Shown here one piece after another: positions 32,325-49,386 of a stretch of 64,000 nt of DNA. Source of the DNA: Variovorax paradoxus (lineage in GTDB: Bacteria; Pseudomonadota; Gammaproteobacteria; Burkholderiales; Burkholderiaceae_C); the NCBI RefSeq assembly GCF_009498455.1, contig NZ_CP045644.1, positions 5,769,001 through 5,833,000 on the forward strand, read 5' to 3'. A program made the translations under genes and the position numbers. How positions within the stretch are numbered: the stretch's first letter is position 1; each line of letters opens with the position of its first letter. A model generated the notes under the pieces. It made no database searches and had not been told where the DNA came from. It saw only the letters and a list, made by a program, of their open reading frames with translations.

Positions 32325-33641
32325 CTACGAAAGCTGTGAACCAGAGACTGCAGCGGTGCGTTGCGCGCGCTCGCGCCACCACAGCAGAAAGCCGCACGCG
32401 AACACCACCACCTGCGTGCCGATGAGCAGCGCAAAGCCCGCGAAGAAACCCGCCGCCGACGAGGCCGCTGTCACCGTGGTGTGTGCTGCACCGCCGCTGT
32501 GCGACACCGCGGCGATCACGCCGCCCATGAGCGCCGGCATGAAGCCCGCCACGAGGCTGCCCACGCCGTTGGTCACGCCGAACGCGCTGGCCGTGTGCTC
32601 GGCACGCGAGCAATGCTGCACGGTGCTTGGAATGGCCGGGCTCTGCAGGCCCCAGAAGAAGTTGGCGGCCACGAGGCAGGTCGCGGCCATGTACGGGTCG
32701 CGCGCGTTGATGGCCAGCAGCACCGACAGTGCCACGCCCGCGCTCGCGCCCATGAAGATGAAGGGCACGCGGTCGCGCCCGAGCTTGTCGATGAGCACGC
32801 CGCCCGTGAACACGGCGAGCACCGTCGCGTACTGCGGCAGCGAGGCGATCCAGCCCATCTCGCGCAGCGAGAAGCCGCGCGCTTCGCGCAGGTAGGTCGG
32901 CAGCCAGTTGCTGCTGCCCCAGAGGTAGGCCAGCGCCGCCGACGTCAGCAGCGTGATGAGAAACAGGTGCCGCGTGTGCAGCGCGCCCTTCACGATGCCC
33001 GCCACGCGCGCCATCGCATCGCCGAGCGACGAAGGCTTGATGCCGTCGCCGTGCCCCGGCGGCATGCGCACGAAGGCCAGCACCAGTGGAATGCCCAGCA
33101 CGATGTTGAGCACGCCGAGCACATGGAACGAGCTGTCCCAATCGAACTGCGTGAGCAGGTAGCCCACCAGCGGATAACCCACCGCCAGCCCCAGCCCCGT
33201 GCCCATGTTCACCAGCGCGTTGGGCTTGCCGTTCTCGTCGCTCTTGAAGTGCGCCTTGATGTACGACGAGGCCAGCGAAAACAGCGGCCCCTCCGACACA
33301 CCGAGCAGCACGCGCGAGGCCAGCAGCAGGCCGTAGCTGTTGAACATCGGCGAGGCCCAGGTCACCACGCCCCACAGGATGAGGCCGTAGATCAGGCTGC
33401 GCCGCACGCCGAACAGCGCCGAGCAGAACGGCGTGAGCACGAAGGCCGAGATGCCGTAGCCGAGCATGAAGGCCGTGGCCAGGAGGCCCTGGCTCACGCG
33501 GTCGGAGGGGTCGAGCCCGACGTGCTTCAGAAAGTCCGCATCGGTGATCAGCACCGCGATGTTGATGCGGTCGACGTAAGAGATCGCCACGATCACGAAC
33601 AGCGTGATGACGCCGTACCAACGGAAGTTCTTGCTCTGCAT
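32325..33641 (-). CDS. MFS transporter of the anion:cation symporter family
   Basis: A 438-residue, 12-helix major facilitator protein. The first helix region (FVIVAISYVDRINIAVLI) and GVRRSLIYGLILWGVVTW in loop 2-3 are typical of the ACS family, which carries organic and aromatic acids. It is the last gene of the 17-gene unit, 47 bp after the porin. Likely inner-membrane uptake of the substrate of the pathway, which would complement the Bug proteins. Confidence 0.88.
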   Translation of the reverse strand: MQSKNFRWYGVITLFVIVAISYVDRINIAVLITDADFLKHVGLDPSDRVSQGLLATAFMLGYGISAFVLTPFCSALFGVRRSLIYGLILWGVVTWASPMFNSYGLLLASRVLLGVSEGPLFSLASSYIKAHFKSDENGKPNALVNMGTGLGLAVGYPLVGYLLTQFDWDSSFHVLGVLNIVLGIPLVLAFVRMPPGHGDGIKPSSLGDAMARVAGIVKGALHTRHLFLITLLTSAALAYLWGSSNWLPTYLREARGFSLREMGWIASLPQYATVLAVFTGGVLIDKLGRDRVPFIFMGASAGVALSVLLAINARDPYMAATCLVAANFFWGLQSPAIPSTVQHCSRAEHTASAFGVTNGVGSLVAGFMPALMGGVIAAVSHSGGAAHTTVTAASSAAGFFAGFALLIGTQVVVFACGFLLWWRERAQRTAAVSGSQLS

Positions 33642-33688
33642 GACCGGGGCTCTCTCTTGCTTGGGGGATGCGCGTCGTGTGGCCGCGC

Positions 33689-34795
33689 CTAGAACATGTG
33701 GCGCATGCCGAACTCGACGCCGCTGGAGGCGCGGTTGGGCCGCGTGATGGCGCCGGCCAAAGCCTGCGTTGCGCCGTTCTTGTTGCTGATGCGGGCAATG
33801 GTTCCGTACACCGCCGTGCGCTTCGAAAGGTTGTGCACGTAGCCCAGCGCCAGCTTCGACGTCGTGGGCTCGCGCACCGCGTTGAGCGGCTCCAGCTTGT
33901 AGCGCGCGTACGAGGCCTTGATTTCGCCCGGACCGATGGGCAGCTGGAAGCCGACCAGCACGCCCTTGGCGTCGGTGCTGCCCTTCGATTCCTTGTACAG
34001 CTCGCTCGTGAGCTTGAGGTTCATGAGCGAGGGGCCGAAGGTGTAGGCCGCGCCGAGGTTGGTCACGCGCAGGTCGCCGCTCACGTAGCGCGTGCGGCCG
34101 GTGGCAATGGCCACGTTGAGGCCGCCGCTCTGGTAGCCGAAGCGTGCGCCCGTGTGCTGGCCGTCGCGCTTGTTCGACACCTGCGTGCCGGGCAGCACCG
34201 AGGTCGAATCGTTCTCGCCCATCGCGTACATCACTTGGCCGTAGAAGCCGCCGAGATTGGCCGGCAGGAAGTAGCCGATGCTGTTCGACGCGCGCGTGCC
34301 GGTGGGCGCCACGAGGCCGCCCAGGCCCGAGAAGTAGATCTGGTTGGCGCCGATGCCGCCGCCGGTGCCGAAGGGATCGAAGATCGCGGTGTTCCAGAAG
34401 GCGGGCACGTAGTCGCGGCCCAGGCGCACTTCACCGAAGGGCCCAGCCAGGCTCACGGTCGAGCGGCGGTTGAAGCTCATCACGCCGGGCGTGCCGTTGC
34501 CGCTGGCCTGGTTGTTCGAGTTCGACGGAAAGCCCGTACCGCTGTCGTTCTGCAGGCCCATCTCGAGCCAGAAGCTGGCCGAGAGTCCGCCGCCGAGGTC
34601 TTCGGTGCCGCGGAAACCGAGGCGGCTGAACATGTTGCCGCTGTTGCCCAGCTGCGTCTTGTGGGCCGATCCGTCGCCGCTGCCGCGCGTGTAGATCACG
34701 GAGGCATCGACCACGCCGAACAGCGTGACGGAAGATTGGGCCAGCGCTCCGCCAGCCGCGGTGGCCGCAGCCATCGCGATCAAGTACTTTTTCAT
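33689..34795 (-). CDS. Gram-negative outer-membrane porin
   Basis: A 368-residue OmpC/Omp32-type 16-strand porin of the Burkholderiales. It has a signal peptide (residues 1-19, ending ALA), the first strand SSVTLFGVVDASVIY, the family motif FRGTEDLGGGLSASFWLE and the C-terminal Phe needed for outer-membrane insertion. Its position between oxygenase reductase and MFS gene suggests a substrate-specific entry pore. Gaps are 55 and 47 bp. Confidence 0.93.
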   Translation of the reverse strand: MKKYLIAMAAATAAGGALAQSSVTLFGVVDASVIYTRGSGDGSAHKTQLGNSGNMFSRLGFRGTEDLGGGLSASFWLEMGLQNDSGTGFPSNSNNQASGNGTPGVMSFNRRSTVSLAGPFGEVRLGRDYVPAFWNTAIFDPFGTGGGIGANQIYFSGLGGLVAPTGTRASNSIGYFLPANLGGFYGQVMYAMGENDSTSVLPGTQVSNKRDGQHTGARFGYQSGGLNVAIATGRTRYVSGDLRVTNLGAAYTFGPSLMNLKLTSELYKESKGSTDAKGVLVGFQLPIGPGEIKASYARYKLEPLNAVREPTTSKLALGYVHNLSKRTAVYGTIARISNKNGATQALAGAITRPNRASSGVEFGMRHMF

Positions 34796-34850
34796 TGAAT
34801 GTCTCGGTTGGTTTTTCTCTCGGCCGTCTTTTGGGTTGTGGCCTTGTTGC

Positions 34851-35819
34851 TCAGATATCCAGCACCAGCCGCTCGCCCTTGCAGCGAGAGACGCAGATCA
34901 TCATGGTCTTGTTGGACGCACGTTCGATCTTGGTGAGGATGCCGTCGTGGTGATCGACTTCGCCCTCGAGCACCGCTGTTTCGCAGGCGCCGCAGACGCC
35001 TTCCTTGCAGCTGTGGTCGGGGTTGAGGCCAGCGTCGATCAGGCTGTCGAGAATCGATTTGCCCGGGGGCACCTCGACACTCTTGCCGCTCTTGGCGCAC
35101 TGCACCACGCAGGTCTGTGTGGCGCTGGGCGCCTCCACATGCACGGCGGCGAAGCGCTCGATGTGTGCGTTGGCGTAGCCCAGTTGCTCGCAGCTCTTTT
35201 CAAAGGCGTCGAGCATCGGCGTGGGGCCGCAGCAGTAGTAATGGCTGGTGGCGCCCTTGCCGGCCAGCAGCGATGCGAGGTCGGGCGGAGCACCCTTCTC
35301 GTCGTCGAAGTGCCAGGTGAGCTGCACCGATTTTTCGGCGGCCAGCGCCTCGATGGCATCGCAGAAGGCGGCCTCCTTGCGGGTGCGTGCGCAGTAGACG
35401 ATTTCGACCGGTTTGCCGATGGCAATGAGCCGCTGCAGCATGCACCAGATGGGCGTCACGCCGATGCCGCCGGCCACGAGCACCGAGCGTTCGGCGCCCT
35501 CTTCCAGCTTGAAGTTGTTGCGCGGCGCCGAGATCGGCAGCGTCATGCCCACGCGCAATTGCTGGTGCACGTAGCGCGAGCCGCCGCGGCTCTTGCGGTC
35601 GTTGAGCACGCCCACCACGTAGCGCTGGCGGTCGCTCGAGGGGTTGCACAGCGAGTAGCTGCGCACCAGCCCGTTGGGCAGGTGCAGGTCGATGTGGGAG
35701 CCGGCCTCGAAGGCGGGAAAGTCCACCGTCGGCGTGGCCGGCCGGAACTCGACGCTGACGATGCCGTCGGCCTCGTAGCGCATGGTGTGCACGAGGGCGT
35801 TCAGCGTGGGAGAAGACAT
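34851..35819 (-). CDS. VanB/PDR-type oxygenase reductase (FMN, NADH, 2Fe-2S)
   Basis: A 322-residue phthalate-dioxygenase-reductase-type protein. The flavin domain has RSYSLCNP (residues 53-60), the NAD domain VAGGIGVTPIWCM and CCGPTPML, and the C-terminal plant-type ferredoxin has ligands Cys271, Cys276, Cys279 and Cys309. It passes electrons from NADH to the Rieske oxygenase encoded just upstream (23 bp). I chose ATG 35819; the open frame beyond it overlaps the oxygenase gene. Confidence 0.92.
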   Translation of the reverse strand: MSSPTLNALVHTMRYEADGIVSVEFRPATPTVDFPAFEAGSHIDLHLPNGLVRSYSLCNPSSDRQRYVVGVLNDRKSRGGSRYVHQQLRVGMTLPISAPRNNFKLEEGAERSVLVAGGIGVTPIWCMLQRLIAIGKPVEIVYCARTRKEAAFCDAIEALAAEKSVQLTWHFDDEKGAPPDLASLLAGKGATSHYYCCGPTPMLDAFEKSCEQLGYANAHIERFAAVHVEAPSATQTCVVQCAKSGKSVEVPPGKSILDSLIDAGLNPDHSCKEGVCGACETAVLEGEVDHHDGILTKIERASNKTMMICVSRCKGERLVLDI

Positions 35820-35842
35820 GGCGATGCTCGCTTGCTTGCAGT

Positions 35843-36886
35843 TCAGGCCGTGGCGGCCTCGGCTTCGGCCAGCTGCGCTTGGGCCAGGTTGCGCATGTGC
35901 CGGCGCAGGCGGACGATGCCCAGGTCGTGCTGGTACAGGTTCTCGTGCTGGTTGGCGTCGGCTTCCATCTCTTCGAGCATCACGCGGTCTTGCTCCAGCA
36001 CGTGCCAGTGGCGCGCCTCGAGGCGGTTCTTGTACAAGAAGCGCCAGGTGTCGCGCTCCCAGCCCGGCGACAGCTTGCGTGCGCGCCAGAAGAAGGTGGC
36101 CGTCATGCCGTTGGCCATCGGCGAGAAGGCGCCGATGATGATGAAGTTGCCGCCGGGGCCGCCGGTCTTCGGGTACGGAATCTCCAGGCGCATCCAGTGG
36201 ATGCCGGTGTCGGCCCACTCGGTCCAGTCGAAGTTGACGTTGCGCTGGCCTTCCTTCTCGAACACGAAGCCGATGTCGGTCGGGCGAACGCCGAACTTGG
36301 CGCTCGAGTCGCCCTCGGCCATCGAGTGCGACTGCTTGTGCAGGTACGTGCCGTGCATCGGGTCCATCACGTTGTCCAGCACGTAGCGGTAGTCGCCCTT
36401 CCACTCGGTGTAGCACAGGAAGTTGGAATACTCCGCTTCATCGGTCAGCTGCTCGGGCAGCACCAGCGGCGGCGGCACGTCGACCGGCTCTTTCGAGTTG
36501 TAGAGGAACACGGCGCCCGCGCGCTCCTGCACATGGAAGTGGCGCGTGGCGCGCGAGCCTTCGAGCTTGCAGCCCGGGCTGCCGGGCACGCGCGTGACCA
36601 CGCCGTCGTGGCGAACTTCAACGCCGTGGTACGGGCACGAGAGGCGGTCGCCCAGGATCACGCCCTGCGACAGCGGCGCGCCGCGGTGCGGGCAGCGGTC
36701 TTCCAGTGCGTGCAGCACGCCTTCGCCGTCGCGCCACAGCGCGATCTTGCGGCCGAGGCGGCGCAGGGAGATGGGGTTCTCCTTGATGAAGTGCGAAGGG
36801 CAGATCGGGTACCAGAGGTCTTTCAGGCCGATCTCCAACAGATGGTCGACCGGGTCAGCGGGAACGGGATGGATGGCGATGGTCAT
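35843..36886 (-). CDS. Rieske aromatic oxygenase, VanA/phthalate-type
   Basis: A 347-residue oxygenase. Rieske ligands are Cys65-x-His67 and Cys84-x2-His87 (CPHRGAPL, CPYHG). The mononuclear iron site has Asp175, His178 and His183 (DPMHGTYLH). The size and single-subunit type with a VanB-like reductase match O-demethylases and phthalate-type or salicylate-type ring hydroxylases. It opens the attack on the unknown substrate together with the FAD monooxygenase. The substrate cannot be read from sequence. Confidence 0.92.
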   Translation of the reverse strand: MTIAIHPVPADPVDHLLEIGLKDLWYPICPSHFIKENPISLRRLGRKIALWRDGEGVLHALEDRCPHRGAPLSQGVILGDRLSCPYHGVEVRHDGVVTRVPGSPGCKLEGSRATRHFHVQERAGAVFLYNSKEPVDVPPPLVLPEQLTDEAEYSNFLCYTEWKGDYRYVLDNVMDPMHGTYLHKQSHSMAEGDSSAKFGVRPTDIGFVFEKEGQRNVNFDWTEWADTGIHWMRLEIPYPKTGGPGGNFIIIGAFSPMANGMTATFFWRARKLSPGWERDTWRFLYKNRLEARHWHVLEQDRVMLEEMEADANQHENLYQHDLGIVRLRRHMRNLAQAQLAEAEAATA

Positions 36887-36898
36887 GATGGGTTCTCC

Positions 36899-37120
36899 TC
36901 AGGCGGCCAGCGTGGCCATTTCCTTGCGGTACAGCGCCTCGGTCCATGCGAGGCCGCCCGGCGTGGCCAGGCCGCTGTCGTTCAGGCGCTGCACGAGGCC
37001 CGGCAGGTCATGGATGCCGTCGCCATAGGCGCGTTCGATCACGTCGCCCAGCAGGTCTTCGTAGGTGGTCGCGGGGCGCTGGCGCGCCTGGTGCGGTTGG
37101 AGATAGCGGTCTTGTTGCAT
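36899..37120 (-). CDS. Small recombinase-like HTH protein of oxygenase clusters
   Basis: A 73-residue protein (MQQDRYLQPHQAR..., then EDLLGDVIERAYGDGIHDLPGLVQRLN and GLAWTEALYRKEMATL). Two helical blocks resemble the helix-turn-helix of resolvase-type recombinases, but no catalytic part exists. I recall such mini-proteins beside Rieske oxygenase genes in other proteobacteria. It lies 12 bp from the oxygenase and 31 bp from the FAD monooxygenase. It may be an assembly or regulatory partner; function unknown. Confidence 0.7.
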   Translation of the reverse strand: MQQDRYLQPHQARQRPATTYEDLLGDVIERAYGDGIHDLPGLVQRLNDSGLATPGGLAWTEALYRKEMATLAA

Positions 37121-37151
37121 CGTGAGCCTCCGTAGGGCGAGGAGAAAAATT

Positions 37152-38333
37152 TCAGGCGGTGGCAGCAGCAGAGGCAGCGACGGCACCCTGCGCCGGCACG
37201 CCCAGCGGCACGGCCCAGGCGTCGTAGGCGTACACCCAGTCGGCGTTGCCGCCTTCGCGCAGCCAGTTGTTGCCGCGCGAGCCAAGCTGCACCTGGCTGG
37301 CGCGCTCGATGCGGGCGGTCTGGTAGCCCTGCAGCGCGGCGGGAATGTCGGCCATGGCCACGCCGTCGAGGTGGCGCGACAGCACCACGGCGTCTTCGAT
37401 CGCCATGCCGGCGCCCTGCGCCATGAAGGGCAGCATCGGGTGCGCGGCATCACCCAGCAGCGCCATGCGGCCCTGCGCCCAGGCGGGCATGGGATCGCGC
37501 TCGTACAGCGCGGTCTTCAGCACGGTGTCGCAGGCATCGAGCAGCGCGCGCGCCTCGGGATGGTAGGCCACGTACTGCTCGCGCAGCTCGTCGACGCTGC
37601 CCGGCGCGGTCCACGACTCGAGGTGCCAGGTGTCCTGCGGCGTGGTGGCGAAGATAAAGATGTCCTTGCCGCGGTTCAGCGGGAAGGTGACGATCTGGCT
37701 TTGCGGGTTCGGGCCCCACCACTTGGTGAAGGCGCCCAGGTTGGGCACGCCGGCCACGCGCTCGGCGGGCACCACGGCGCGGTAGGCGACGATGCCGGTG
37801 AAGCGCGGGCTCTCGGCGCCGAACATCGCGGTGCGCACGCCCGAGTGGATGCCGTCGGCACCAATGAGCACGCCCACGCGGGCGCTGGTGCCGTCGCTGA
37901 ACGACAGGGTCACGCCCTGGTCGTCGGCTGCGATGGTCTCGGCGCGCTTGCCGAGCGCCACGCGTTCGGCGGGGAACATGTCGGCCAGCGCGGCCAGCAG
38001 GTCGGCGCGGTGGATGGTGAGCTGCGGCGCGCCGTAGCGCTGTTCGGCCGAGTCGGCCATTTCGAGGCGCGAGGTTTCTTCGCCGCTGTCGTAGGTGCGG
38101 CTGATGCGGTGCGACGGGCGCGCCGCTGTTACGCGGGCGGCGTCGCCCACGCCCAGGCCGTCGAGTGCGCGCACGGCGTTCGGCGTGAGGTTGATGTCGG
38201 CGCCAACGCGGGCGAACTGCCTGGCCTGTTCGAACACGACCACGTCGTGCCCGGCACGGCGCAGTGCAATGGCGGTGACCAGGCCGCCGATGCCGGCACC
38301 GACGATGCCGATGGTGGATTCGCTTGTGTGCAT
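37152..38333 (-). CDS. FAD-dependent aromatic hydroxylase (salicylate/3-hydroxybenzoate-type)
   Basis: A 393-residue group A flavoprotein monooxygenase. FAD motif is GIVGAGIGGLVTAIAL (residues 9-24), the DG motif is GADGIHSGVR and the GD motif is GDAAHPMLPFMAQGAG. It uses NAD(P)H and oxygen to hydroxylate a phenolic ring. With the Rieske enzyme it would give a diol for the VOC dioxygenase. I chose ATG 38333 at the start of the homology; the gap to the Bug gene is 28 bp. C-terminal tail is Ala-rich. Confidence 0.88.
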   Translation of the reverse strand: MHTSESTIGIVGAGIGGLVTAIALRRAGHDVVVFEQARQFARVGADINLTPNAVRALDGLGVGDAARVTAARPSHRISRTYDSGEETSRLEMADSAEQRYGAPQLTIHRADLLAALADMFPAERVALGKRAETIAADDQGVTLSFSDGTSARVGVLIGADGIHSGVRTAMFGAESPRFTGIVAYRAVVPAERVAGVPNLGAFTKWWGPNPQSQIVTFPLNRGKDIFIFATTPQDTWHLESWTAPGSVDELREQYVAYHPEARALLDACDTVLKTALYERDPMPAWAQGRMALLGDAAHPMLPFMAQGAGMAIEDAVVLSRHLDGVAMADIPAALQGYQTARIERASQVQLGSRGNNWLREGGNADWVYAYDAWAVPLGVPAQGAVAASAAATA

Positions 38334-38361
38334 GCTGTCTCTCTTTGTTCTTGCGTGCGGC

Positions 38362-39348
38362 TTACTCGGCCACGATGTTGCGGGCCTTGATGATCCGGGC
38401 CCAGACGGCCGTCTCATCGCGGATGTGGGTGGCGAACTCGGCGGGCTTCATGGCCGCGTCGGTCATGCCTTGCGCCTTCAGGCGTTCGCGCACATCGGGC
38501 TGTGCCAGCATCTCGGCCGCGTCTTTTGCGAGTTGCTCGACGACGGCGGGCGGCGTGCCCTTGGGGGCCAGCAGGCCGTACCACGAGGTCACGGCCACGC
38601 CCTGGATGCCCTGCTCCGCCAGCGTGGGAATGTCGGGTGCGGCGGGGCTGCGCTTGGCCTCGGTCACGCCCAGCGCGATGAGCTTGCCGTTCTTGATGAA
38701 GGGCATGGTCGCGGGCAGGTTGCTGAACATCAGCGGCACCGAGCCGCCGAGCACGTCGTTGAGCGCGGGCGCCGTGCCCTTGTAGGGCACGTGCAGCAGG
38801 TCGATGCCGGCCTGCTGCTTGAACAGCTCGCCCGCCAGGTGCAGGCCGCTGCCCACGCCGGGCGAGGCGTACGACAGCGTGTTGGGCTTGGCCTTGGCCA
38901 TGGCCACCAGCTCCTTCGCGCTCTTGATGCCCGAGGCCGGCGCGGCCACCAGCACGTTGGGCGCCTTGGCGAGCATGGTGACGGGCACGAAGTCTTTTTC
39001 GATGTTGAACGGAAAGTTCGGCATCAGCGTCGGGTTGATCGTGAGGTTGCCGGCCGGCACCACGAGCAGCGTGTGGCCGTCGCCCTTGGCGCGCTTGACC
39101 TTGTCGATGCCGATGTTGCCGGCCGCGCCGACAAGGTTCTCGACCACGGCCGCCTGGCCGTAGCGCTTGGCCAGGCCGTCGGACAGCACGCGGGCCAGCG
39201 TGTCGACCGGGCCGCCGGGCGGGAACGGCGAGACGATGGTGAAGCGGTCGCTCGACAGCTGCTTGTGCGCGTCGCTCTGTGCGTGCGCGGGCAAGGCGAT
39301 GGCCAGTGCGGCGGCCGCCATCAGGGAGAAAGAAAGACGTCGTTGCAT
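38362..39348 (-). CDS. Bug/TctC-type binding protein (downstream copy of the catabolic cluster)
   Basis: A 328-residue binding protein. It has a signal peptide (about residues 1-24, ending AHAQ), then IVSPFPPGGPVDTLAR, GAAGNIGID and VPYKGTAPALNDVLGG, the Bug signatures. It differs clearly from the copy at 48403-49386, so the cluster codes for two binding proteins, perhaps for two substrates or isomers. Gap to the VOC gene is 14 bp. Confidence 0.9.
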   Translation of the reverse strand: MQRRLSFSLMAAAALAIALPAHAQSDAHKQLSSDRFTIVSPFPPGGPVDTLARVLSDGLAKRYGQAAVVENLVGAAGNIGIDKVKRAKGDGHTLLVVPAGNLTINPTLMPNFPFNIEKDFVPVTMLAKAPNVLVAAPASGIKSAKELVAMAKAKPNTLSYASPGVGSGLHLAGELFKQQAGIDLLHVPYKGTAPALNDVLGGSVPLMFSNLPATMPFIKNGKLIALGVTEAKRSPAAPDIPTLAEQGIQGVAVTSWYGLLAPKGTPPAVVEQLAKDAAEMLAQPDVRERLKAQGMTDAAMKPAEFATHIRDETAVWARIIKARNIVAE

Positions 39349-39362
39349 GAGGTTCACCGGGT

Positions 39363-41839: not shown

Positions 41840-42640
41840 TCAGATGGCCAGGGGCGCGACGCGGTTGCGCAGCGCGCGCACGGCGCTGTACACGGTCAGG
41901 GCCGAGGTCTTGGGGTTGGCCGCGAGCGGCTTGTTGCGCATGGTCAGCGTGAAGCTGCCGAAGGCGCCTTCGGCTTCGACGGTGTGCACGTTCTCGGTGG
42001 TGCCCGGGTCGGCAATGAGGCGCACCAGCGTCTGATCGAGGCCCAGGCCCGCGAGCGAGACGGTGGCCGCCACGTTGGCGTTCTTCGGATAGAGCAAGGC
42101 CGCTTCGCGCGCGCTGCCTTCGAAGATGATGGTTTCGTGGGCCAGCGTGTCGAGGTTGCGGCCCTGCTCGGCCGGCGTGCCCTTCCAGGCCTGCGGCGGC
42201 TTGCGGCCCGTGTAGCGCACGCTGCTCAAGCCGCCGATGCGGGCCGCGGCGAGCGCATCGATGCCGCCGATGGCGCCGGGAATCAGCTGCACCTGCGTGT
42301 GGCCGGCGACGGCGGCGGCTTCGAGCTTCTCGGCGAAGCCCGTGGCCGACAGCGCGCCGACCGATGCCACCACGCAGGGCGTGCCGCGTGCCAGCGCGGG
42401 CAGCACGTGCTGCTCGATGGCGGCATGGCCGGCGGTCTCGACCACGAGGTCGATGCCGGTGGCGGGCACGGCGCTGCCCACTTGCGCGTCGGGTGCGACC
42501 TTCTGCGCGGCGGCAACGCCTTCGAACGGCACGACGATGGCCACCACCTTCAGGGCGGGATCGCCGCGCAGCAGTTCGAGCACCGAGGTGCCGATGGCTC
42601 CGCAGCCGACGAGTGCAATGCGCGTGATGGCAGTGGTCAT
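41840..42640 (-). CDS. nadX: L-aspartate dehydrogenase
   Basis: A 266-residue enzyme of the NadX/AspDH family. The Rossmann motif is ALVGCGAIGTS (about residues 9-19). LIPGAIGGIDAL and the C-terminal MRNKPLAANPKTSALTVYSAVRAL are typical. It interconverts L-aspartate and iminoaspartate/oxaloacetate plus ammonia with NAD(P). Here it lies inside a catabolic operon, not with nad genes, so a role in amino-group release from a pathway intermediate, or on an aspartate-like product, is more likely than NAD synthesis. Start ATG 42640. Confidence 0.85.
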   Translation of the reverse strand: MTTAITRIALVGCGAIGTSVLELLRGDPALKVVAIVVPFEGVAAAQKVAPDAQVGSAVPATGIDLVVETAGHAAIEQHVLPALARGTPCVVASVGALSATGFAEKLEAAAVAGHTQVQLIPGAIGGIDALAAARIGGLSSVRYTGRKPPQAWKGTPAEQGRNLDTLAHETIIFEGSAREAALLYPKNANVAATVSLAGLGLDQTLVRLIADPGTTENVHTVEAEGAFGSFTLTMRNKPLAANPKTSALTVYSAVRALRNRVAPLAI

Positions 42641-42660: not shown

Positions 42661-44358
42661 TCACTGGGCCGCGCCGAGCGCGGGAATCTGCGTGACCGTG
42701 TTGGTCGGCGGGCCGGCGAAGGTCGTCTTGAAACCGCCGATCGACAGCATGTCGATTTCCAGCAAGAACGGGCCGTTGGCGGCGAGCGCCTTGTCCAGGT
42801 GGGCCGGCAGGTCGGCCAGGTCCTTCACGCGGGCATGCGGCAGCGCGATCGACTGGCACAGCAGGTCGTAGTCGGGCGTGTGCAGCTCGGCGTAGCACTG
42901 GCGGCCGCCGTACTGCGCGTCCTGGATGTTCTTGATGACGCCGTAGCTCTTGTCGTTCATGAGCACGATGACCATGGGCGCCTTCTCCTGCACCATGCAG
43001 GCCAGCTCGCCCAGGTTCAGGATGAAGCCGCCGTCGCCGGCCAGGCAGAAGGTCTTGCGACCCGAGCCCGTCACCGCCGCGCCGATGGCCGCGCCAATGG
43101 CCATGGGCATGCCCTGGCCGATGCCGCCGCCCGTGGCGTGCACGCCGGCACTGGGTTCGAACACGCGCAACTCGCGGTTGCCCCAGGTGCTGTTCGACAC
43201 CGTGACGTCGCGCACCCAGTTGAATTGGCGCCCGGCCACCGACTGCAGCTGGCGCACGAGTTCGGCATACGGGCCGAGGCCGTCGCGCAGCGTGGCCACG
43301 GCCTGGTCGTGCGCGGCGCGCAGGTCGACCAGCAGCTGCGGGTCGGCCCTGTACTTCGCGGCTTCGAGGCGATCGGCCAGGCCATCGAGGGCCAGCGCGG
43401 AATCGCCGCAGACAAAAACTTCGGACGCGTAGCAGCGGCCTTCGGCAGCGGCATCGGCGTCGATGCGGTACAGCGTGCGCGGCAGCTTCAGTTCGTACTT
43501 GAGCGTCTCGTTGCCGCGCAGGCGCGAACCGACCACGAGCATCGCGTCGCAGGTCTGATAGAAGGCCTCGACGGGCTTCTGGATGTTGTACGCGCCGAGC
43601 GAGCCGGCGTCGTCTTCTGGCACCGTGCCGCGACCTTGCGTGGTCGTGACCACGCCGAAGCCCAGCTTCTGCAGGCGCTGGATGGCCGAGCGGGCATGGC
43701 GGGCACCGCCACCGACCCACAGCAGCGGGCGCTTGGCCGTGGCCAGGCGCGCGGCCAGTGCATCGAGGCCGGCGGCCGAAGGCACGGGGCGCTCGATGGG
43801 CAGCGGCGACAGGTCGGCCGGCATGGTCGTGAGCGCCGACTGGATGTCGATCGGAATTTCCACGCTGACCGGGCCGGTCGGCGCCGTCATCGCGAGCTGC
43901 ACCGCGCGCTTGAGCGTGCCGAGCACCGTCTCGACGCTGCGCACGCGCAGCGCGGCCTTCGACACGGCCTTGAGCATGGTGAGCTGGTCGGGCGCTTCGT
44001 GGATGTACGACATGCCCTTGTCCAGGTACGGCGTCTCGATCTGGCCCGTGATGTGCAAGAGCGGCGCGCCGGCGGTCAGTGCCTCGACCATGCTGCCCGC
44101 GATGTTGCCCGCGGCCGGGCCGGTGCTGGTGATGCACACGCCCAGGCTGGCGGTGGAGCGCGCATAGGCGTCGGCCATGTTGCCCGCGCCGGCCTCGCCG
44201 CGCGCCGAGATGAAGCGCACCGTGCCGCGCTGCGCGAAGGCATCGAGGATCGGCATGTTGTGGATCGAGATGACGCCGAAGGCTGCCTTGACGCCGCACT
44301 GCTCGAGAAAGGCGGCGACGACGGCGCCGACCGTGACGGTGTTGTTGGGGTTATGCAT
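42661..44358 (-). CDS. Thiamine diphosphate-dependent decarboxylase/synthase-like enzyme
   Basis: A 565-residue ThDP enzyme of the acetolactate synthase/benzoylformate decarboxylase group. The N-terminal PYR domain has catalytic Glu55 (ISARGEAGAGNMADAYAR). The central domain resembles the FAD-binding domain. The C-terminal PP domain has GDGGFILNLGEL and MNDKSYG, the metal and diphosphate site, near residues 440-470. Probable reaction is decarboxylation or carboligation of a 2-oxoacid. ATG 44358 overlaps the SDR stop by 8 bp. Confidence 0.88.
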   Translation of the reverse strand: MHNPNNTVTVGAVVAAFLEQCGVKAAFGVISIHNMPILDAFAQRGTVRFISARGEAGAGNMADAYARSTASLGVCITSTGPAAGNIAGSMVEALTAGAPLLHITGQIETPYLDKGMSYIHEAPDQLTMLKAVSKAALRVRSVETVLGTLKRAVQLAMTAPTGPVSVEIPIDIQSALTTMPADLSPLPIERPVPSAAGLDALAARLATAKRPLLWVGGGARHARSAIQRLQKLGFGVVTTTQGRGTVPEDDAGSLGAYNIQKPVEAFYQTCDAMLVVGSRLRGNETLKYELKLPRTLYRIDADAAAEGRCYASEVFVCGDSALALDGLADRLEAAKYRADPQLLVDLRAAHDQAVATLRDGLGPYAELVRQLQSVAGRQFNWVRDVTVSNSTWGNRELRVFEPSAGVHATGGGIGQGMPMAIGAAIGAAVTGSGRKTFCLAGDGGFILNLGELACMVQEKAPMVIVLMNDKSYGVIKNIQDAQYGGRQCYAELHTPDYDLLCQSIALPHARVKDLADLPAHLDKALAANGPFLLEIDMLSIGGFKTTFAGPPTNTVTQIPALGAAQ

Positions 44359-45190
44359 GGCGGGAATGGCCTCCGGAAATATCGATGTGGCTGCCGGTCG
44401 TGTACGACGCGAGCGGTGAAGCAAGGAAAAGGATCGCGCGCGCGGCTTCGGTCGGAAGCCCCAGGCGACCCAGCGGAATGTGTTTGGTGGTGGCGAGCTG
44501 GCGGCTCCAGGCGGCCCAGTCCTGCGACTTGTCTTCGCGCGCGTCGAAGCGGCGGCGCCACTGGCCCGACTCGACGAGGCCGATCAGGATGCCGTTGACG
44601 CGCACGCCCTGCGGCGCGAACTCGGTGGCCATGGAACGCACGAGGTTCAGCAAGCCTGCGCGCGCGGCCGACGTAGCGACCATGTGCGGCTCGGGCTGAC
44701 GCGCGAGCAGCGAGTTGGCGCAGACGATGGCGGCATCGCCCAGCACGGCGCGCTGCGCCGCGAGCTGCGGCAGGAAGGCGCGCGTCGGGTGGATGACCGA
44801 GAAGAACTTCAGGTGCAGCTCTTCCATCCAGGCCGCGTCGTCGGTGTCGGCGAACGTGGACACACGCCCCTGCCCTGCGTTGTTGACCAGCATCGAGGCC
44901 GGGCCGAGCGCGGCCTCGCTGGCAGCGGCGAAGGCGCGCACCGAGGCGGCGTCGCGCACGTCGCAGGTCTGTGCGAACAGCTTCGCATCCGGGTACGTGG
45001 CGCGCAGGCCGGCCACGGCGGCATCGAGCCGTTCGGCGTTGCGGCCACACAGCGCCACGGCGGCGCCGCAGCCGAGCAGCAGCTCGACCGTGGCCAGGCC
45101 GATGCCCGACGACCCGCCCGTGACCACGGCCACGCGGCCGGCCAGTGCGTCGGCGGCGAAGAAGGAGGAAGAAGGGGCGGAGGTCGTCAT
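44351..45190 (-). CDS. SDR-fold protein with altered catalytic residues
   Basis: A 279-residue short-chain dehydrogenase-fold protein. The cofactor motif TGGSSGIG (residues 24-31) and NNAG (103-106) are intact. At the catalytic spacing, Ser160 is present but the expected Tyr is Thr173 and the expected Lys is Arg177. It may use other chemistry or be non-catalytic. I chose ATG 45190; an in-frame TTG at 45196 is the alternative. It overlaps the ThDP gene by 8 bp. Confidence 0.85.
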   Translation of the reverse strand: MTTSAPSSSFFAADALAGRVAVVTGGSSGIGLATVELLLGCGAAVALCGRNAERLDAAVAGLRATYPDAKLFAQTCDVRDAASVRAFAAASEAALGPASMLVNNAGQGRVSTFADTDDAAWMEELHLKFFSVIHPTRAFLPQLAAQRAVLGDAAIVCANSLLARQPEPHMVATSAARAGLLNLVRSMATEFAPQGVRVNGILIGLVESGQWRRRFDAREDKSQDWAAWSRQLATTKHIPLGRLGLPTEAARAILFLASPLASYTTGSHIDISGGHSRHA

Positions 45191-45205
45191 GATCAAAAAA
45201 GCGTG

Positions 45206-46045
45206 TCAGGCGCTGCGCAGCGGAACCACCTTGGCGGTGCTGTTGCGTGCGGGCGAGTAATTGAGCAGGCCCGAGATCTCGTCGGCCGTGCCGCGCACGC
45301 GCAGCACCATCTCGTCCATGCGGTTCTCGTCGATGTGGCCCGAGGTGATGGTGGCGCCCAGCGCCGCCACGATGTGGCCGCTGTGGTCGCGCACCGGCGC
45401 GGCGATGGTCGAGATGTTCGATTCGAAGAAGCCCTCGCCCAGCACATAGCCGCGCTGGCGGTCGGCCTGCACCATGTCGAACAGTTCGTTCACGGTCTTG
45501 GGCGTGCTCGGCGAGAAGGTCTCGAGCTTGTCTTCGGGGTACAGCGCGCGCAGCTGCGGCAAGGTGAGGTCTTCCAGCAGGATGCGGCCCAGCACCGTGG
45601 CGTGGGCCGGCAGGCGCGTGCCCACCGTGACCGAGCTGGCGAACGGCGTGGCCGGCGCCACCTTGGCGACGTAGACGATCGAGCGGCCGTCGCGCACCAC
45701 GAGGTTGCAGGGCGTGCGCAGTTCGTCGCACAGGCGGTTGAGCAGCGGCGTGCCCAGTTGCGTGAGCTCCAGCGAGGCCAGGTATTCGAAGCCCAGGCGC
45801 AGCACGGCCAGGCCCAGGCGGTAGTCGCGTCCGCCCTCGGCGCGCTCGAGGAAACCCATGTTCTCCAGCGTGGTGAGCAGGCGAAAGACGGTCGAGCGCG
45901 GCAGGTCGAAGCGGCGCGCCAGCTCGGGCGCGGAGAGCGTGCGGCTCTCGCGGCTGAACTCGCACAGCACGCGCAGGCCGCGCTCCAGCGCGGGCACGTT
46001 GTAGCGGTCTGCGCCCTCTTCCATCACTTCGTTGTCGGTGGCCAT
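45206..46045 (-). CDS. IclR family transcriptional regulator
   Basis: A 279-residue IclR-type regulator. The winged HTH (about residues 15-75) has ALERGLRVLCEF and LARRFDLPRSTVFRLLTTLENMGFL. The effector domain has GLAVLRLGFEYLA, VARVA-like strands and GYVLGEGFFESNISTIAAPVRD. It is encoded inside the operon it probably controls. The perfect dyad at 49410-49429 is the best candidate binding site. IclR members of aromatic pathways may be activators or repressors. Confidence 0.92.
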   Translation of the reverse strand: MATDNEVMEEGADRYNVPALERGLRVLCEFSRESRTLSAPELARRFDLPRSTVFRLLTTLENMGFLERAEGGRDYRLGLAVLRLGFEYLASLELTQLGTPLLNRLCDELRTPCNLVVRDGRSIVYVAKVAPATPFASSVTVGTRLPAHATVLGRILLEDLTLPQLRALYPEDKLETFSPSTPKTVNELFDMVQADRQRGYVLGEGFFESNISTIAAPVRDHSGHIVAALGATITSGHIDENRMDEMVLRVRGTADEISGLLNYSPARNSTAKVVPLRSA

Positions 46046-46081
46046 CTGGGAATTCCTCTCGGTTCTCTTGTTCGTGTCGGG

Positions 46082-46951
46082 TCAGCCGGCGAGCGATTCG
46101 CGCAGCAAGGCGGCGACGGCCTGCGGTTGTTCCACATAGCCGGCGTGACCCGCATCGTCCACCAATTCGAGGGGCACGCCGCAGCGGCGCGCAACCTCTT
46201 CGCAGGCGGCCGGCGGCGTGACGACGTCGAGCGCACCGCAGGCCACGCGCACGGGCATCGGCGGCGGCAGGTCGGCCAGCAGGTCGGCGTTGCACAGCAG
46301 CTCGACGGCCTGGCGGTAGCCGTGGTCGTTCAGGCGCGCCATGTTCCAGCGCACCCACTGGCGGGCGTGCTCGCTGGCACCGTCGGAGACGAGCCGGCCC
46401 GCGCGCTTGGCGGCCATGCCGGCAATGCCGAGGTCGTCGAGCGTGGCCAGGCGTTCGGCGCGCACCTTGGCGCGGGCGTCGATGCGCTCGGGGGCGCCAT
46501 AGCCGATGGCGGGGCTCACAAGCACGAGGCGGCGGATGCGCGCACTGGCACTCGACTCGTTGCGCGCAGCCGATGCAGCGGTGATGGCGCCCAGTGAATG
46601 GCCGACGAGCACGCAGGAGCGGATCGAGAGCGCGTCGAGCATTTCTTCAAGACGCGCGGCGTAGTCGGCAGCGGTCGGCGTGGCCGAGGCCAGCGGCGTC
46701 GAGCGGCCATAGCCCGGTGCGTCCCACGCAATGAGGCAGGCCTGCGGCGCCAGCAGCGCCGCGGTGTCGAGCCACGAGGCCGCGCCCGAGCCGATGCCGT
46801 GCAGGCACACGATCACCGGGCCCTGTCCGCATTCGCGCACCGACACCACCGCGCCGTTGCCGACCGCGACGTCGCGGGCCGGAAAGCGTGCGTCGAGCCG
46901 CGCCAGCTCGAAAGCCGGCAGGGTCTGCGCGGGGATGTCGATGGTGCCCAT
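46082..46951 (-). CDS. Alpha/beta hydrolase (ring-cleavage hydrolase-like)
   Basis: A 289-residue alpha/beta hydrolase. The oxyanion region is CLHGIGSGAASW, nucleophile Ser119 lies in VGHSLGA, the acid in CGALDVVTPP (near residue 236) and the base in DDAGHAGYVEQP (near 265). MhpC/BphD-type enzymes of this size cleave C-C bonds of extradiol products, which fits the VOC enzyme in this operon. Esterase or lactonase activity is equally possible. ATG 46951 chosen at the start of homology. Confidence 0.85.
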   Translation of the reverse strand: MGTIDIPAQTLPAFELARLDARFPARDVAVGNGAVVSVRECGQGPVIVCLHGIGSGAASWLDTAALLAPQACLIAWDAPGYGRSTPLASATPTAADYAARLEEMLDALSIRSCVLVGHSLGAITAASAARNESSASARIRRLVLVSPAIGYGAPERIDARAKVRAERLATLDDLGIAGMAAKRAGRLVSDGASEHARQWVRWNMARLNDHGYRQAVELLCNADLLADLPPPMPVRVACGALDVVTPPAACEEVARRCGVPLELVDDAGHAGYVEQPQAVAALLRESLAG

Positions 46952-46974
46952 GGCCTGTTCGCTCGTTCGCTCGC

Positions 46975-47538
46975 TCAGCGCTTGATCTTGGCCAGCGGAT
47001 GGTCGGCCGGGTACGTCGGCTTGATCGGCTTCTGTGCGCCGAGCATCACGCACATCAGCGCGTCTTCGTCGCCGATGTTGATCTCTTCGCGGTACACGCC
47101 CGGCGGCACCGAGATCAGGTCGCGGTCGGTCATGATGGTTTCGAAGCGCTCGCCGTCTTTTTCGATGACGACCTTGAGCTTGCCGCGGATGAGGAAGAAC
47201 ACTTCTTCCACGTCGGTGTGCAGGTGCGGCGGGCCTTCGTGGCCGGCCGGGATCACCATGGTCGAGAAGGTGAAGTGCTCCGAAGGCACGGTGTTGGTGT
47301 CGGCCGCGACACCGGTGCCGCCGGTGCCCACGTAGCGCATCTGCGCGCGGCGGAACTTGGGATCGAAGTCGGCCTGGAACTTCAGCGCGTCCCAGTCGTA
47401 GGTGCGGGTTTCGTAGCGCGCGATGCGGGTGTTCATCCACTCGGCCAGGCTGGAACCTTCAGGCTGCACCAGCGTGCTGCCGACATCGCCAGCGGCGGTG
47501 TTGCTGTTGATCTTTTGCTGTTCGGACAAATCGCTCAT
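46975..47538 (-). CDS. Cupin-domain protein
   Basis: A 187-residue cupin. The conserved barrel (about residues 70-170) has metal-ligand pattern GHEGPPHLHTDVEEVFFLIRGKLKV (His-x-His-x4-Glu) and PPGVYREE. AAGGAG precedes ATG 47538. Cupins of this size in aromatic operons may be dioxygenases, decarboxylases or isomerases. No closer family could be named. Confidence 0.8.
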   Translation of the reverse strand: MSDLSEQQKINSNTAAGDVGSTLVQPEGSSLAEWMNTRIARYETRTYDWDALKFQADFDPKFRRAQMRYVGTGGTGVAADTNTVPSEHFTFSTMVIPAGHEGPPHLHTDVEEVFFLIRGKLKVVIEKDGERFETIMTDRDLISVPPGVYREEINIGDEDALMCVMLGAQKPIKPTYPADHPLAKIKR

Positions 47539-47567
47539 GGGTGTACTCCTTGGTCGGGAAAATTCGT

Positions 47568-48383
47568 TCAGTGCATCGCGAAGCCGCCGTTCACGGCGAG
47601 CAGCTGGCCGGTGACGAAGCGCGCCAGGCCGGACAGCAGGAACACGGTGGCGCCGCAGACGTCGGCCGCCTGCTGCTCGCGCGGGATGGCGCGGCCTTCG
47701 AGGTATTTCTGGTGGCGCGCCATCGGCACGTACTCGGTGGCTTCGACCAGTGTGAGGCCCGGTGCCACGGCGTTGACGGTGATGTTGTCGCCGCCCCATT
47801 CGCGCGCCAGCGAGCGCGTCATGGAAATGACCGCGCCCTTGCTCGACGCGTAGGCCAGCAGGTTGGGCGCGCCCCACAGCGCCGTGTCCGACGCGAGGTT
47901 GACGATGGCGCCACGGCCGCTGGCCGCCAGCGCGGGGCGGCAGGCGCGGCCCATGAGCCAGCTGCCGCGCACGTTGACGTTCATCACGCGGTCCCACATG
48001 TCGATCTCGAGCTGGTGCGCGTCGCGCCCGCCCGAGTTGGTGATGGCGGCGTTGTTGACGAGGCCGTCGAGGCCGCCGAGCAGGCGTACCGCCTCGGCGG
48101 CGCCCGCCTCGATGGAGGCCGGTTCCGACAGGTCGATCGCCAGCGCGTGCGCCGTGCGGCCGGCATCGCGCAGCGCCTTGGCTTCGGTTTCGGCCAGCTC
48201 GCCGAGGATGTCGGCCAGCACCACGCTCGCACCCGCCGCGGCCACGCACTGCGCGAACGCCAGGCCCAGGCCGCGCGCACCACCGGTCACGAGCACGCGG
48301 CGGCCGGCCAGCAGGTTGGCGGGCATCTCGGCCAGCAGCGACTGCAGGCTGGAGGGATCGGCGATGGCTTTGAGGTCGGTCAT
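47568..48383 (-). CDS. SDR family dehydrogenase with intact active site
   Basis: A 271-residue short-chain dehydrogenase. Cofactor motif TGGARGLG (residues 33-40), NNAA (110-113), and the full catalytic set Ser165, Tyr178 and Lys182 (YASSK). The Asp after the second strand (LADIL) suggests NAD(H). It probably oxidises a hydroxyl group in the pathway, for example a cis-diol from the Rieske step. Second gene of the operon, 19 bp after the Bug gene. Confidence 0.9.
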   Translation of the reverse strand: MTDLKAIADPSSLQSLLAEMPANLLAGRRVLVTGGARGLGLAFAQCVAAAGASVVLADILGELAETEAKALRDAGRTAHALAIDLSEPASIEAGAAEAVRLLGGLDGLVNNAAITNSGGRDAHQLEIDMWDRVMNVNVRGSWLMGRACRPALAASGRGAIVNLASDTALWGAPNLLAYASSKGAVISMTRSLAREWGGDNITVNAVAPGLTLVEATEYVPMARHQKYLEGRAIPREQQAADVCGATVFLLSGLARFVTGQLLAVNGGFAMH

Positions 48384-48402
48384 GGCGGGCTTCTGGTTAA
48401 GT

Positions 48403-49386
48403 TCAGTCGGCCTGGATGCCGAGTTCCTTGATGACCTTGCCGAAGCGCGCGAAGTCGGCGGCGTTGGTCTTGGCGAGCACGTCGGCGTCGCCGCCCACGG
48501 GCGTGGTGCCCAGCACGGCCATGCGCGACACGATGTCGGGCATCTTCAGGATCTCGTTGAAGTGGCCGTTGAGCGTCTTCACGACTTCGGGCGGCAGGTT
48601 GCGCGGGCCCCACAGGCCGTTCCAGGCGGTCAGCTCCACGTCCTTGTAGCCCAGCTCGGCGAAGGTCGGCACCTTGGGTGCGAGCGGCGAGCGTTCTTTC
48701 GAGGCCACGGCCAGCGGAACCATCTTGCCGTTGGGCATGTACGGCGCCACGGGGCCGAGCGTGATGAAGGTCACCGGCACGTGGCCGCCGAGCACGTCGT
48801 TGACGGCGGGCGCCACGCCCTTGTACGGCACGTGCGCCAGGCTGGTGCCCGAGGCGCGGGCGAACATCTCGCCCAGGATGTGCATCGGCGAACCGCTGCC
48901 CGGGCTGGCGTAGCTCAGCGACTTGCCGCCCTTGGCCGCGGCCACCGCGTCCTTCAGGCCGGTGTAGCCCTTGGCGCCGCTGGCGACGAGGAAGAGCGGC
49001 AGGCTGCCGGTCTGCACGATCGGCGTGAAGCCGTTGAGCACGTCGTAGCCCGAGGCGCTGCCGGTCTTGAGCACCAGCTGCGCGATCGAGAAGGTGCTGG
49101 GCGCGAGCAGCAGCGTGTAGCCGTCGGGCGCGGCCTTCGACACATAGGCGCTGCCGATGATGCCGCTGGCACCGGGGCGGTTGTCGACCACCACGGGCTG
49201 GCCGACGCGGGCCGAGAGCTTCTCGGCGTACAGGCGCGCCAGGGCGTCGGTGTCGCCACCCGCCGGATAGGCAACGACCAGCGTGATCGGCTTGCTGGGG
49301 TAGGTGTCTGCCCAGGCGAGTCCGGAAGCGCAAGCGGCGGCCAGGGAGACGGCAGCGGCGATGGCGAGGCGGCGAGTGTGTGTCAT
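48403..49386 (-). CDS. Bug/TctC-type binding protein (promoter-proximal gene of the cluster)
   Basis: A 327-residue binding protein. It has a signal peptide (about residues 1-26, ending LAWA), then VVAYPAGGDTDALAR, NRPGASGIIG and VPYKGVAPAVNDVLGG. It is the first gene of the 17-gene unit, so the promoter and operator lie just upstream at 49390-49500. Probably captures the aromatic or carboxylate substrate in the periplasm. Confidence 0.9.
   Translation of the reverse strand: MTHTRRLAIAAAVSLAAACASGLAWADTYPSKPITLVVAYPAGGDTDALARLYAEKLSARVGQPVVVDNRPGASGIIGSAYVSKAAPDGYTLLLAPSTFSIAQLVLKTGSASGYDVLNGFTPIVQTGSLPLFLVASGAKGYTGLKDAVAAAKGGKSLSYASPGSGSPMHILGEMFARASGTSLAHVPYKGVAPAVNDVLGGHVPVTFITLGPVAPYMPNGKMVPLAVASKERSPLAPKVPTFAELGYKDVELTAWNGLWGPRNLPPEVVKTLNGHFNEILKMPDIVSRMAVLGTTPVGGDADVLAKTNAADFARFGKVIKELGIQAD

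Follow-up and report, generated by a model that had tools for sequence, protein, structure and literature searches.

The 64,000-nucleotide stretch of Variovorax paradoxus DNA analysed here (the window, from a genome of 7.29 Mb in a single contig) contains, between positions 32325 and 49386, a run of seventeen minus-strand genes that we read as an operon for the degradation of an aromatic compound, probably kynurenate. Each of the 17 open reading frames begins with ATG and runs uninterrupted to a terminal stop, and the intergenic distances lie between -8 and 55 bp, in keeping with the first-pass annotation of this DNA, which had described seventeen adjacent same-strand genes with small gaps. 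Its family calls were likewise borne out, Pfam and NCBIfam agreeing for all 16 genes that it named; the seventeenth, which it left unnamed, encodes a 73-residue HTH_62 protein. NCBIfam matches over the cut-off are few and comprise the L-aspartate dehydrogenase (AspDH; NF009827, NF009828), the thiamine diphosphate (ThDP)-dependent enzyme (NF005470) and the second of two short-chain dehydrogenase/reductase (SDR) proteins, SDR2 (NF005468). The genes are listed in Table 1 with a putative operator.

Table 1. Genes of the operon in order of transcription, with proposed roles, and a putative operator (window coordinates).
Feature	Proposed role	Position	Strand	Support
Bug1, TctC-type periplasmic binding protein	accessory	48403..49386	-	PF03401 3.1e-59
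SDR1, canonical short-chain dehydrogenase	cis-7,8-dihydrodiol dehydrogenase	47568..48383	-	PF13561
Cupin (Cupin_2)	acts on dihydroxypicolinate ring or its opening product	46975..47538	-	PF07883 2.3e-11
Alpha/beta hydrolase	amide or C-C hydrolase of opened ring	46082..46951	-	Abhydrolase_6
IclR-family regulator (PcaR/PobR-like)		45206..46045	-	IclR_C 9.7e-35; TIGR02431 1e-50, under its cut-off
SDR2, SDR-like protein without the YxxxK pair	side-chain C=C reductase	44351..45190	-	NF005468 over cut-off
ThDP-dependent enzyme	2-oxo-acid decarboxylase	42661..44358	-	TPP_enzyme N/M/C; NF005470 over cut-off
L-aspartate dehydrogenase (AspDH; NadX family)	reduces iminosuccinate or oxidises aspartate	41840..42640	-	Asp_DH_C 3.1e-34
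Aldehyde dehydrogenase (ALDH)	oxidises formyl side chain	40348..41823	-	Aldedh 1.1e-169
Vicinal oxygen chelate (VOC) type I extradiol dioxygenase	7,8-dihydroxykynurenate 8,8a-dioxygenase	39363..40334	-	PF00903 2.3e-13
Bug2, TctC-type periplasmic binding protein	accessory	38362..39348	-	PF03401 7.6e-73
Flavin adenine dinucleotide (FAD) aromatic hydroxylase (FAD_binding_3), 6-hydroxynicotinate-3-monooxygenase-like	optional	37152..38333	-	PDB 5eow E=1.4e-81
73-residue HTH_62 protein	possible Rieske oxygenase partner	36899..37120	-	PF20552 1.8e-29
Rieske oxygenase alpha subunit	kynurenate 7,8-dioxygenase	35843..36886	-	Rieske 2.6e-20, VanA_C 3.4e-10
Reductase (FAD/NAD + 2Fe-2S)	reductase for Rieske oxygenase	34851..35819	-	Fer2, NAD_binding_1
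Porin	accessory	33689..34795	-	Porin_4 2.4e-68
Major facilitator superfamily (MFS) transporter	accessory	32325..33641	-	MFS_1 2.9e-49
GTTTC-N6-GAAAC	putative IclR operator	49412..49427	.	25 bp upstream of first gene

Using the ThDP-dependent protein as search bait, we found 206 places in named genomes and kept 80 loci (L032-L111), 62 of which are longer than 21 kb; the ThDP gene is present in all of these by selection. Its nearest named relatives (98%) are in V. boronicumulans NBRC 103145 and Variovorax sp. Root473, and at E<=1e-80 it occurs in 38 of 399 genomes of the family and, among 274 genomes of the class, in one, the window's own. Across the 80 kept loci, several of which are cut by contig ends, ALDH and SDR2 were found in 80, IclR in 79, VOC and SDR1 in 78, AspDH in 77, cupin and hydrolase in 76 and the Rieske subunit in 72. 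All 62 long loci hold VOC, ALDH, hydrolase, cupin, SDR2, AspDH and IclR, and by tblastn SDR1 and the Rieske subunit are each in 61 of them, the reductase in 60 and HTH_62 in 58. By family and motif, the Rieske subunit, SDR1 and the VOC enzyme are encoded together in 61 of 62. The exceptions are L074, which lacks SDR1, Rieske subunit, reductase and HTH_62, L107, which lacks the reductase, and three Ralstonia loci without HTH_62. The grouping is conserved and is not due to chance; the same gene set, sought in other genomes as the first-pass annotation had suggested, has a core common to nearly all the long loci. The porin (55/62), Bug2 (48/62), Bug1 (43/62), FAD hydroxylase (34/62) and MFS transporter (33/62), also counted by tblastn, are accessory.

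Around this core the arrangement varies. The set is split in Comamonas testosteroni, C. terrae and Delftia acidovorans into one half with cupin, hydrolase, IclR and AspDH and another with SDR1, IclR, SDR2, ThDP, ALDH, VOC, HTH_62, Rieske subunit and reductase; between the halves, in L087, L080 and further Comamonas/Delftia loci, stands a gene (group u9) judged by eye to resemble a methylthioadenosine/S-adenosylhomocysteine nucleosidase. Distant SDRs (27-31%) take the place of SDR2 in a diverged subfamily. A RidA-like gene is present in 21 of 100 loci (L032-L131), in at least 13 of them between the Rieske and reductase genes, and a protein of about 110 residues (MLLTIVMKHH...; L053:16010-16363 and relatives), which has no NCBIfam match, adjoins HTH_62 in at least 12 loci. 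The transporters differ from locus to locus and include Bug, MFS and porin proteins and, judged by eye, a look-alike of nitrate/taurine-type ABC importers.

Rearranged versions of the set were found in Klebsiella aerogenes, K. pneumoniae, Acinetobacter baumannii, Caballeronia and Novosphingobium, with 42-73% identity to the window proteins for cupin, ALDH, SDRs, VOC, Rieske subunit, ThDP enzyme and AspDH (64-73% for the cupin in four distant loci) and 37-50% for the hydrolase. The order in Acinetobacter is ferredoxin, small protein, Rieske subunit, SDR, VOC, ferredoxin reductase and MFS, followed by cupin, hydrolase, SDR, AspDH, ALDH and ThDP; Klebsiella has an IclR gene in addition. The Klebsiella cluster lies between speB and the tkt region in both records (L164:11700-24415, L128:8700-21414) and therefore may be an ordinary chromosomal feature there. 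In L127 and L129 the reductases are HcaD/AndAa-like and the ferredoxins AndAb-like, which is the make-up of ring dioxygenases. Caballeronia NK8 pNK84 carries a second Rieske/ThDP/VOC set, followed by a xanthine-dehydrogenase-family hydroxylase and an aminotransferase homologue (L130:25965-27150), which matches in two abutting frames beside the molybdopterin hydroxylase.

The Rieske subunit, distantly resembling DdmC/CarAa-type oxygenases, conserves its CPHRGA, YHG and DNVmDPMHG..LH motifs (n=83). Because ferredoxin and ferredoxin reductase accompany it in Klebsiella, Acinetobacter and Caballeronia, with an SDR1 homologue directly after it, the enzyme probably acts as a ring dioxygenase, with SDR1 as its partner dihydrodiol dehydrogenase; the AYxxSK motif of SDR1 is conserved (n=82). 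Demethylation of the vanillate (VanAB) type, suggested by the VanA_C domain, was dropped on the same grounds. In 86 of 93 cases (some genomes being counted twice) the gene for the HTH_62 protein immediately precedes that for the Rieske subunit, and the misses include Klebsiella, Acinetobacter and Novosphingobium, where a small protein is also found upstream; this 'recombinase-like' protein looks more like an oxygenase partner than a recombinase. The VOC protein bears a distant likeness to the type I extradiol enzymes HpaD and catechol-2,3-dioxygenase, and its GHVV, NHVAF and EYY regions are conserved (n=90); we take these to supply the 2-His-1-Glu metal ligands of the C-terminal domain. SDR2 does not have the Tyr-x-x-x-Lys pair of classical SDRs: Thr and Arg stand in its place, within ATSAARAG, conserved at 97% or more in 86 sequences, and the stretch PEPHMVATSAARAG is conserved as well (n=86). 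By its sequence, SDR2 is an unorthodox SDR.

AspDH scores far over its thresholds (PF01958, 117.5 bits against a cut-off of 27; NF009827, 413.6 against 226), at the level of an equivalog assignment, and matches 1h2h, 1j5p and 2dc1 in the PDB, where the FAD enzyme is nearest to 6-hydroxynicotinate 3-monooxygenase (5eow). The distant PDB matches of the hydrolase include alpha-(N-acetylaminomethylene)succinate hydrolase (3kxp), RutD and BphD-type hydrolases, and the cupin weakly resembles the quercetinase QueD. Several of these families (Rieske, extradiol, ALDH, hydrolase) are common to meta-cleavage operons, and the bph, mhp and hpa operons likewise combine Rieske or flavin hydroxylation with SDR, extradiol, hydrolase and ALDH functions. 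A conventional catechol or protocatechuate meta-cleavage operon that happens to include an unrelated AspDH for NAD synthesis is nonetheless hardly credible. Catechol meta cleavage was considered and rejected, as the Pfam tables of the 17 proteins contain neither 2-oxopent-4-enoate hydratase nor 4-hydroxy-2-oxovalerate aldolase; the operon has instead a ThDP enzyme, a cupin and AspDH, of which the last two are in every long locus and also in Klebsiella, Acinetobacter and Novosphingobium. The operon's gene list contains no NAD-synthesis gene besides AspDH.

The bacterial kynurenate (quinoline) pathway was described biochemically around 1960 in Pseudomonas extracts. In this classical route, dihydroxylation of kynurenate at C7 and C8 and a dehydrogenation precede cleavage of the C8-C8a bond; the product, a 4,6-dihydroxypicolinate, bears a 2-oxo-acid side chain that is then decarboxylated and oxidised. 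The route needs enzymes for ring dioxygenation, dihydrodiol dehydrogenation, extradiol cleavage, 2-oxo-acid decarboxylation and aldehyde oxidation, and the operon provides a candidate for each. We hypothesize, with a probability of roughly 77%, that the operon enables the cell to take up kynurenate (4-hydroxyquinoline-2-carboxylate) and degrade it completely, along the quinoline branch of tryptophan catabolism. The choice of kynurenate is drawn from the adjacency of kynA and kynB, the loss of kynU and a linked aminotransferase, all seen in relatives and described below; the individual reactions are assigned from enzyme family and order.

In the proposed scheme, the Rieske oxygenase and its reductase would convert kynurenate to the 7,8-dihydrodiol, SDR1 would oxidise this to 7,8-dihydroxykynurenate, and the VOC enzyme would cut the carbocycle between C8 and C8a, leaving 4,6-dihydroxypicolinate with a 3-carboxy-3-oxopropenyl side chain. 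SDR2 might reduce the side-chain double bond, after which the ThDP enzyme would decarboxylate the 2-oxo acid and ALDH would oxidise the resulting aldehyde to a carboxyethyl side chain. The cupin and the alpha/beta hydrolase are then predicted to open the pyridine ring and cut the carbon chain, ring hydrolysis and retro-Claisen cleavage yielding glutarate and aminofumarate, a tautomer of iminosuccinate. Finally AspDH, with RidA in some relatives, would turn iminosuccinate into aspartate, or aspartate into oxaloacetate and ammonia. An AspDH in an aromatic operon would be explained in this way, because the ring nitrogen would leave as iminosuccinate, the substrate of the enzyme in its reductive direction. 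The AspDH score over cut-off and the RidA-like genes of 21 of 100 loci speak for this nitrogen chemistry. The first-pass annotation had predicted a nitrogen-containing aromatic substrate, which the scheme supports and the genome context narrows to kynurenate. Its sequence of ring hydroxylation, ring cleavage, hydrolysis, decarboxylation and nitrogen release can also be retained; the part that fell is the FAD hydroxylase as an obligatory step, since its gene is found in little more than half of the long loci (34/62). This enzyme is optional and probably stands outside the main sequence; our guess is that it might feed xanthurenate in at 7,8-dihydroxykynurenate.

The evidence for kynurenate comes from related genomes. 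In one of these (G447), the cluster, from SDR1 to reductase and with extra MFS, porin and DapA-like genes, is followed, 2 bp from the reductase gene, by a convergent kynA and then by kynB. In a second species of the same genus (G590), 1 bp separates the reductase gene from a convergent kynA, which kynB adjoins, on a contig that spans VOC to reductase; the ThDP gene of that genome is on another contig. In both genomes kynA and kynB score over the NCBIfam cut-offs for tryptophan 2,3-dioxygenase and arylformamidase. A genetic link to the tryptophan-to-kynurenine genes is found in these two relatives only. The kynureninase gene kynU of G447 lies elsewhere on its contig (C1:3396503), and a further member of the genus (G525) has the order kynB-kynU-kynA (L157) and is negative for the cluster ThDP protein. 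The G447 cluster also contains a DapA-family aldolase-like gene (L133:755-1651, below cut-off); hydratase-aldolases of this kind act on aryl-CH=CH-CO-COOH, the predicted side chain.

A second line of evidence is the distribution of kynureninase. Tryptophan dioxygenase (PF03301) is present in 263 of the 399 family genomes and kynureninase (TIGR01814) in 262, of which 249 score over the cut-off. Among genomes with the dioxygenase, the cluster is found in 9 of 11 that lack kynU and in 24 of 252 that have it (Fisher test, p=1.2e-7, a guide only, as are the p-values below, because related genomes are treated as independent and draft genomes are used). With weak kynU matches counted as absent, the figures are 9 of 14 and 24 of 249 (p=3.4e-6, kinship again ignored). 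The nine cluster-bearing genomes without kynU span seven genera, and within one genus (g293) two genomes (G448, G591) have the cluster and no kynU whereas three (G344, G526, G649) have kynU and no cluster. For G448, the family-wide TIGR01814 survey gave no match and another search a weak one (6e-17). The pattern is the one expected if the cluster can replace the kynureninase branch. Tryptophan dioxygenase and the cluster by themselves are weakly associated (33 of 38 genomes with the cluster, 230 of 361 without; p=0.004).

The third line concerns an aromatic aminotransferase (NF006719, over cut-off), a candidate for the enzyme that would make kynurenate from kynurenine. In the 77 genomes for which coordinates of both genes were available, it lies beside kynA (no more than 8 kb from the tryptophan dioxygenase gene) in 7 of 12 with the cluster and in 0 of 65 without (Fisher test, kinship ignored, p=3.3e-7). 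The seven genomes (G317, G355, G378, G448, G490, G560, G591) represent five genera. In G448 and G591 a RidA-like gene and the aminotransferase lie between kynB and kynA, the usual place of kynU; this pair of genes borders kynB-kynA in G317 and G378, in G355 the aminotransferase adjoins kynA, and in G560 an aminotransferase-kynA-RidA unit is near kynB-kynU. Nine control loci from genomes with kynU (L150-L158) have kynB-kynU-kynA, two of them with one extra gene, and no aminotransferase. The second Rieske/ThDP/VOC set on Caballeronia NK8 pNK84, with its hydroxylase and aminotransferase homologue, also counts in favour of kynurenate. In two further genomes with no TIGR03035 kynB and no kynU match (G351, G454), a hydrolase gene precedes kynA (L147:8441-9316, L148:10648-11526); the product, which is hormone-sensitive-lipase-like in L147, is perhaps an alternative formamidase.

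These observations also bear on whether the substrate might be a relative of kynurenate, such as xanthurenate, quinaldate or another hydroxyquinoline carboxylate, with the shared core handling the ring. Xanthurenate derives from 3-hydroxykynurenine, which would account for the link to kynurenine genes; the optional FAD hydroxylase, being like 6-hydroxynicotinate 3-monooxygenase, could hydroxylate it, and the molybdopterin hydroxylase beside the second Caballeronia NK8 copy could be read in the same sense. We consider such a substrate unlikely: xanthurenate would need neither the Rieske oxygenase nor SDR1, the molybdopterin hydroxylase is present at one locus only, and the aminotransferase together with kynU loss fits kynurenate most simply.

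A candidate regulatory site lies before the first gene. The palindrome GTTTC-N6-GAAAC has a single match in the 64-kb window, with 0 expected in shuffles, and the exact sequence recurs in 28 of the 80 kept loci (1.62 Mb, one site each), 25 of these sites lying 12-104 bp before Bug1 or SDR1 and the other three, from Ralstonia, 70-80 bp after the reductase gene. It also precedes cluster genes in Klebsiella, Acinetobacter, G447, G448 and G465, and it occurs inside two genes, the porin gene of L130 and the ThDP gene of L164. The exact form is absent from Caballeronia L127 and L162, Novosphingobium L131 and B. arboris L161. Its placement across loci argues for control by the internal IclR protein in at least part of the family, and we infer that this regulator acts at the palindrome as its putative operator. 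A promoter scan was uninformative (one promoter-like site, 1.0 expected), a terminator scan stayed near chance (12 sites, 10.0 expected), and a search of Rfam gave no match. Upstream on the same strand (49579-54566) lie genes that by eye are dadA-like, panE-like and alaS-like, and many Variovorax loci have homologues of them next to the cluster; the dadA-like gene ends at 49579 and is followed by what appears by eye to be an inverted repeat of high GC content with a run of T, which the terminator scan did not flag.

Several points weigh against kynurenate as the substrate. The direct adjacency to kynA-kynB is confined to one genus; in the flanks of the 100 loci L032-L131, kynA, kynB and kynU were found in none and the aminotransferase in one. 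The window genome itself keeps kynU, in a kynB-kynU-kynA group some 2.7 Mb from the cluster and with no aminotransferase there. The ThDP protein was the sole marker by which genomes were counted as cluster-bearing, and of the 33 genomes with both cluster and tryptophan dioxygenase, the window's included, 24 retain kynU; the two branches therefore often coexist, and replacement is not required. Two genomes (G374, G429) lack both kynU and the cluster, and three more without the cluster (G482, G546, G614) also lack kynU if weak matches are discounted. The aminotransferase family is broad, two of the seven genomes with the linked gene (G490, G560) keep kynU, and cluster-bearing genomes (G000, G501, G357) account for three of the nine control loci. 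The exact palindrome is absent from 52 of the 80 kept loci and from the kynA/aminotransferase loci L142-L149 and L159. Finally, the end products in the old reports are glutamate, alanine and acetate, not glutarate and aspartate.

The flanks without kyn genes and the variable transporters would suit a plant-derived aromatic acid that contains nitrogen and is unrelated to kynurenate, the link with kynurenine genes then being coincidental or a matter of shared regulation. We judge this very unlikely, given that adjacency in one genus, kynU absence in seven genera and the aminotransferase in five genera agree with one another. Kynurenate is the substrate with the best support. A fuller statement, namely that the cluster comprises the full, as yet unassigned gene set for kynurenate mineralisation by bacteria, is conserved across beta-, gamma- and alphaproteobacteria, Klebsiella and Acinetobacter included, and provides sequences for enzymes characterised solely through their activity, with ring nitrogen released as iminosuccinate and passed by AspDH to aspartate, SDR2 without Tyr/Lys acting as side-chain reductase and HTH_62 needed as Rieske partner, is advanced tentatively and may, as a whole, fall somewhat short of an even chance.

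To our knowledge, kynurenate dioxygenase, its dihydrodiol dehydrogenase and 7,8-dihydroxykynurenate dioxygenase are orphan enzymes. We presume that Delftia (Pseudomonas) acidovorans is tied to the quinoline branch, and we take P. aeruginosa PA3504-PA3507 and PA3510 to be a related cluster, for which we found no paper in the open-access literature. Nor did we find there a paper assigning the operon genes; subscription journals were mostly outside that search, so novelty is not proven. The pathway of about 1960 and the present proposal share ring dioxygenation, dihydrodiol dehydrogenation, extradiol cleavage, decarboxylation, aldehyde oxidation and a nitrogen-bearing product, but the former came without genes, whereas here a gene set including a terminal AspDH is proposed, and the end products differ. 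NadX aspartate dehydrogenase serves NAD biosynthesis in Thermotoga and Archaeoglobus; the window AspDH has the same family and conserved C-terminal region but is encoded in a catabolic operon, where it would act at the nitrogen-release end.

Pseudomonas are said to degrade kynurenine via anthranilate or via a 'quinolinine pathway' to kynurenic acid (PMC4938989), and a 1961 paper on the degradation of kynurenic acid by Pseudomonas extracts is cited (PMC11354673). The lum genes for riboflavin/lumichrome catabolism, which ends in pyruvate and acetoacetate, similarly form an N-heterocycle route with Rieske, xanthine-oxidase-like, ThDP decarboxylase, extradiol, hydrolase and cupin proteins, but substrate and gene set are different and the word 'aspartate' is absent from the main text of that paper (PMC12746152). 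The kynR-kynU-permease-kynB cluster of A. baumannii, also a bacterial route consuming kynurenine-pathway metabolites, belongs to the kynureninase/anthranilate branch, and no Rieske, extradiol or AspDH gene is described in the passages concerned (PMC9162365). A. baumannii A1S_0956-0958, annotated as L-aspartate dehydrogenase, betaine-aldehyde dehydrogenase and acetolactate synthase large subunit, appear with values of 2.2-2.4 in the mucin section of PMC5757984, and their order matches AspDH-ALDH-ThDP in the Acinetobacter locus L129.

If the proposal is correct, it would suggest a role for A1S_0956-0958, would explain the aspartate dehydrogenase within an aromatic operon, and would supply genes for a tryptophan-catabolic branch that, as far as the open-access literature goes, is known by its chemistry and not by sequence. 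Kynurenic acid is described as a bioactive tryptophan product in the abstract of PMC11354673, and the gene set, which occurs in soil and human-associated genera, would then be a genomic marker for kynurenate consumption.

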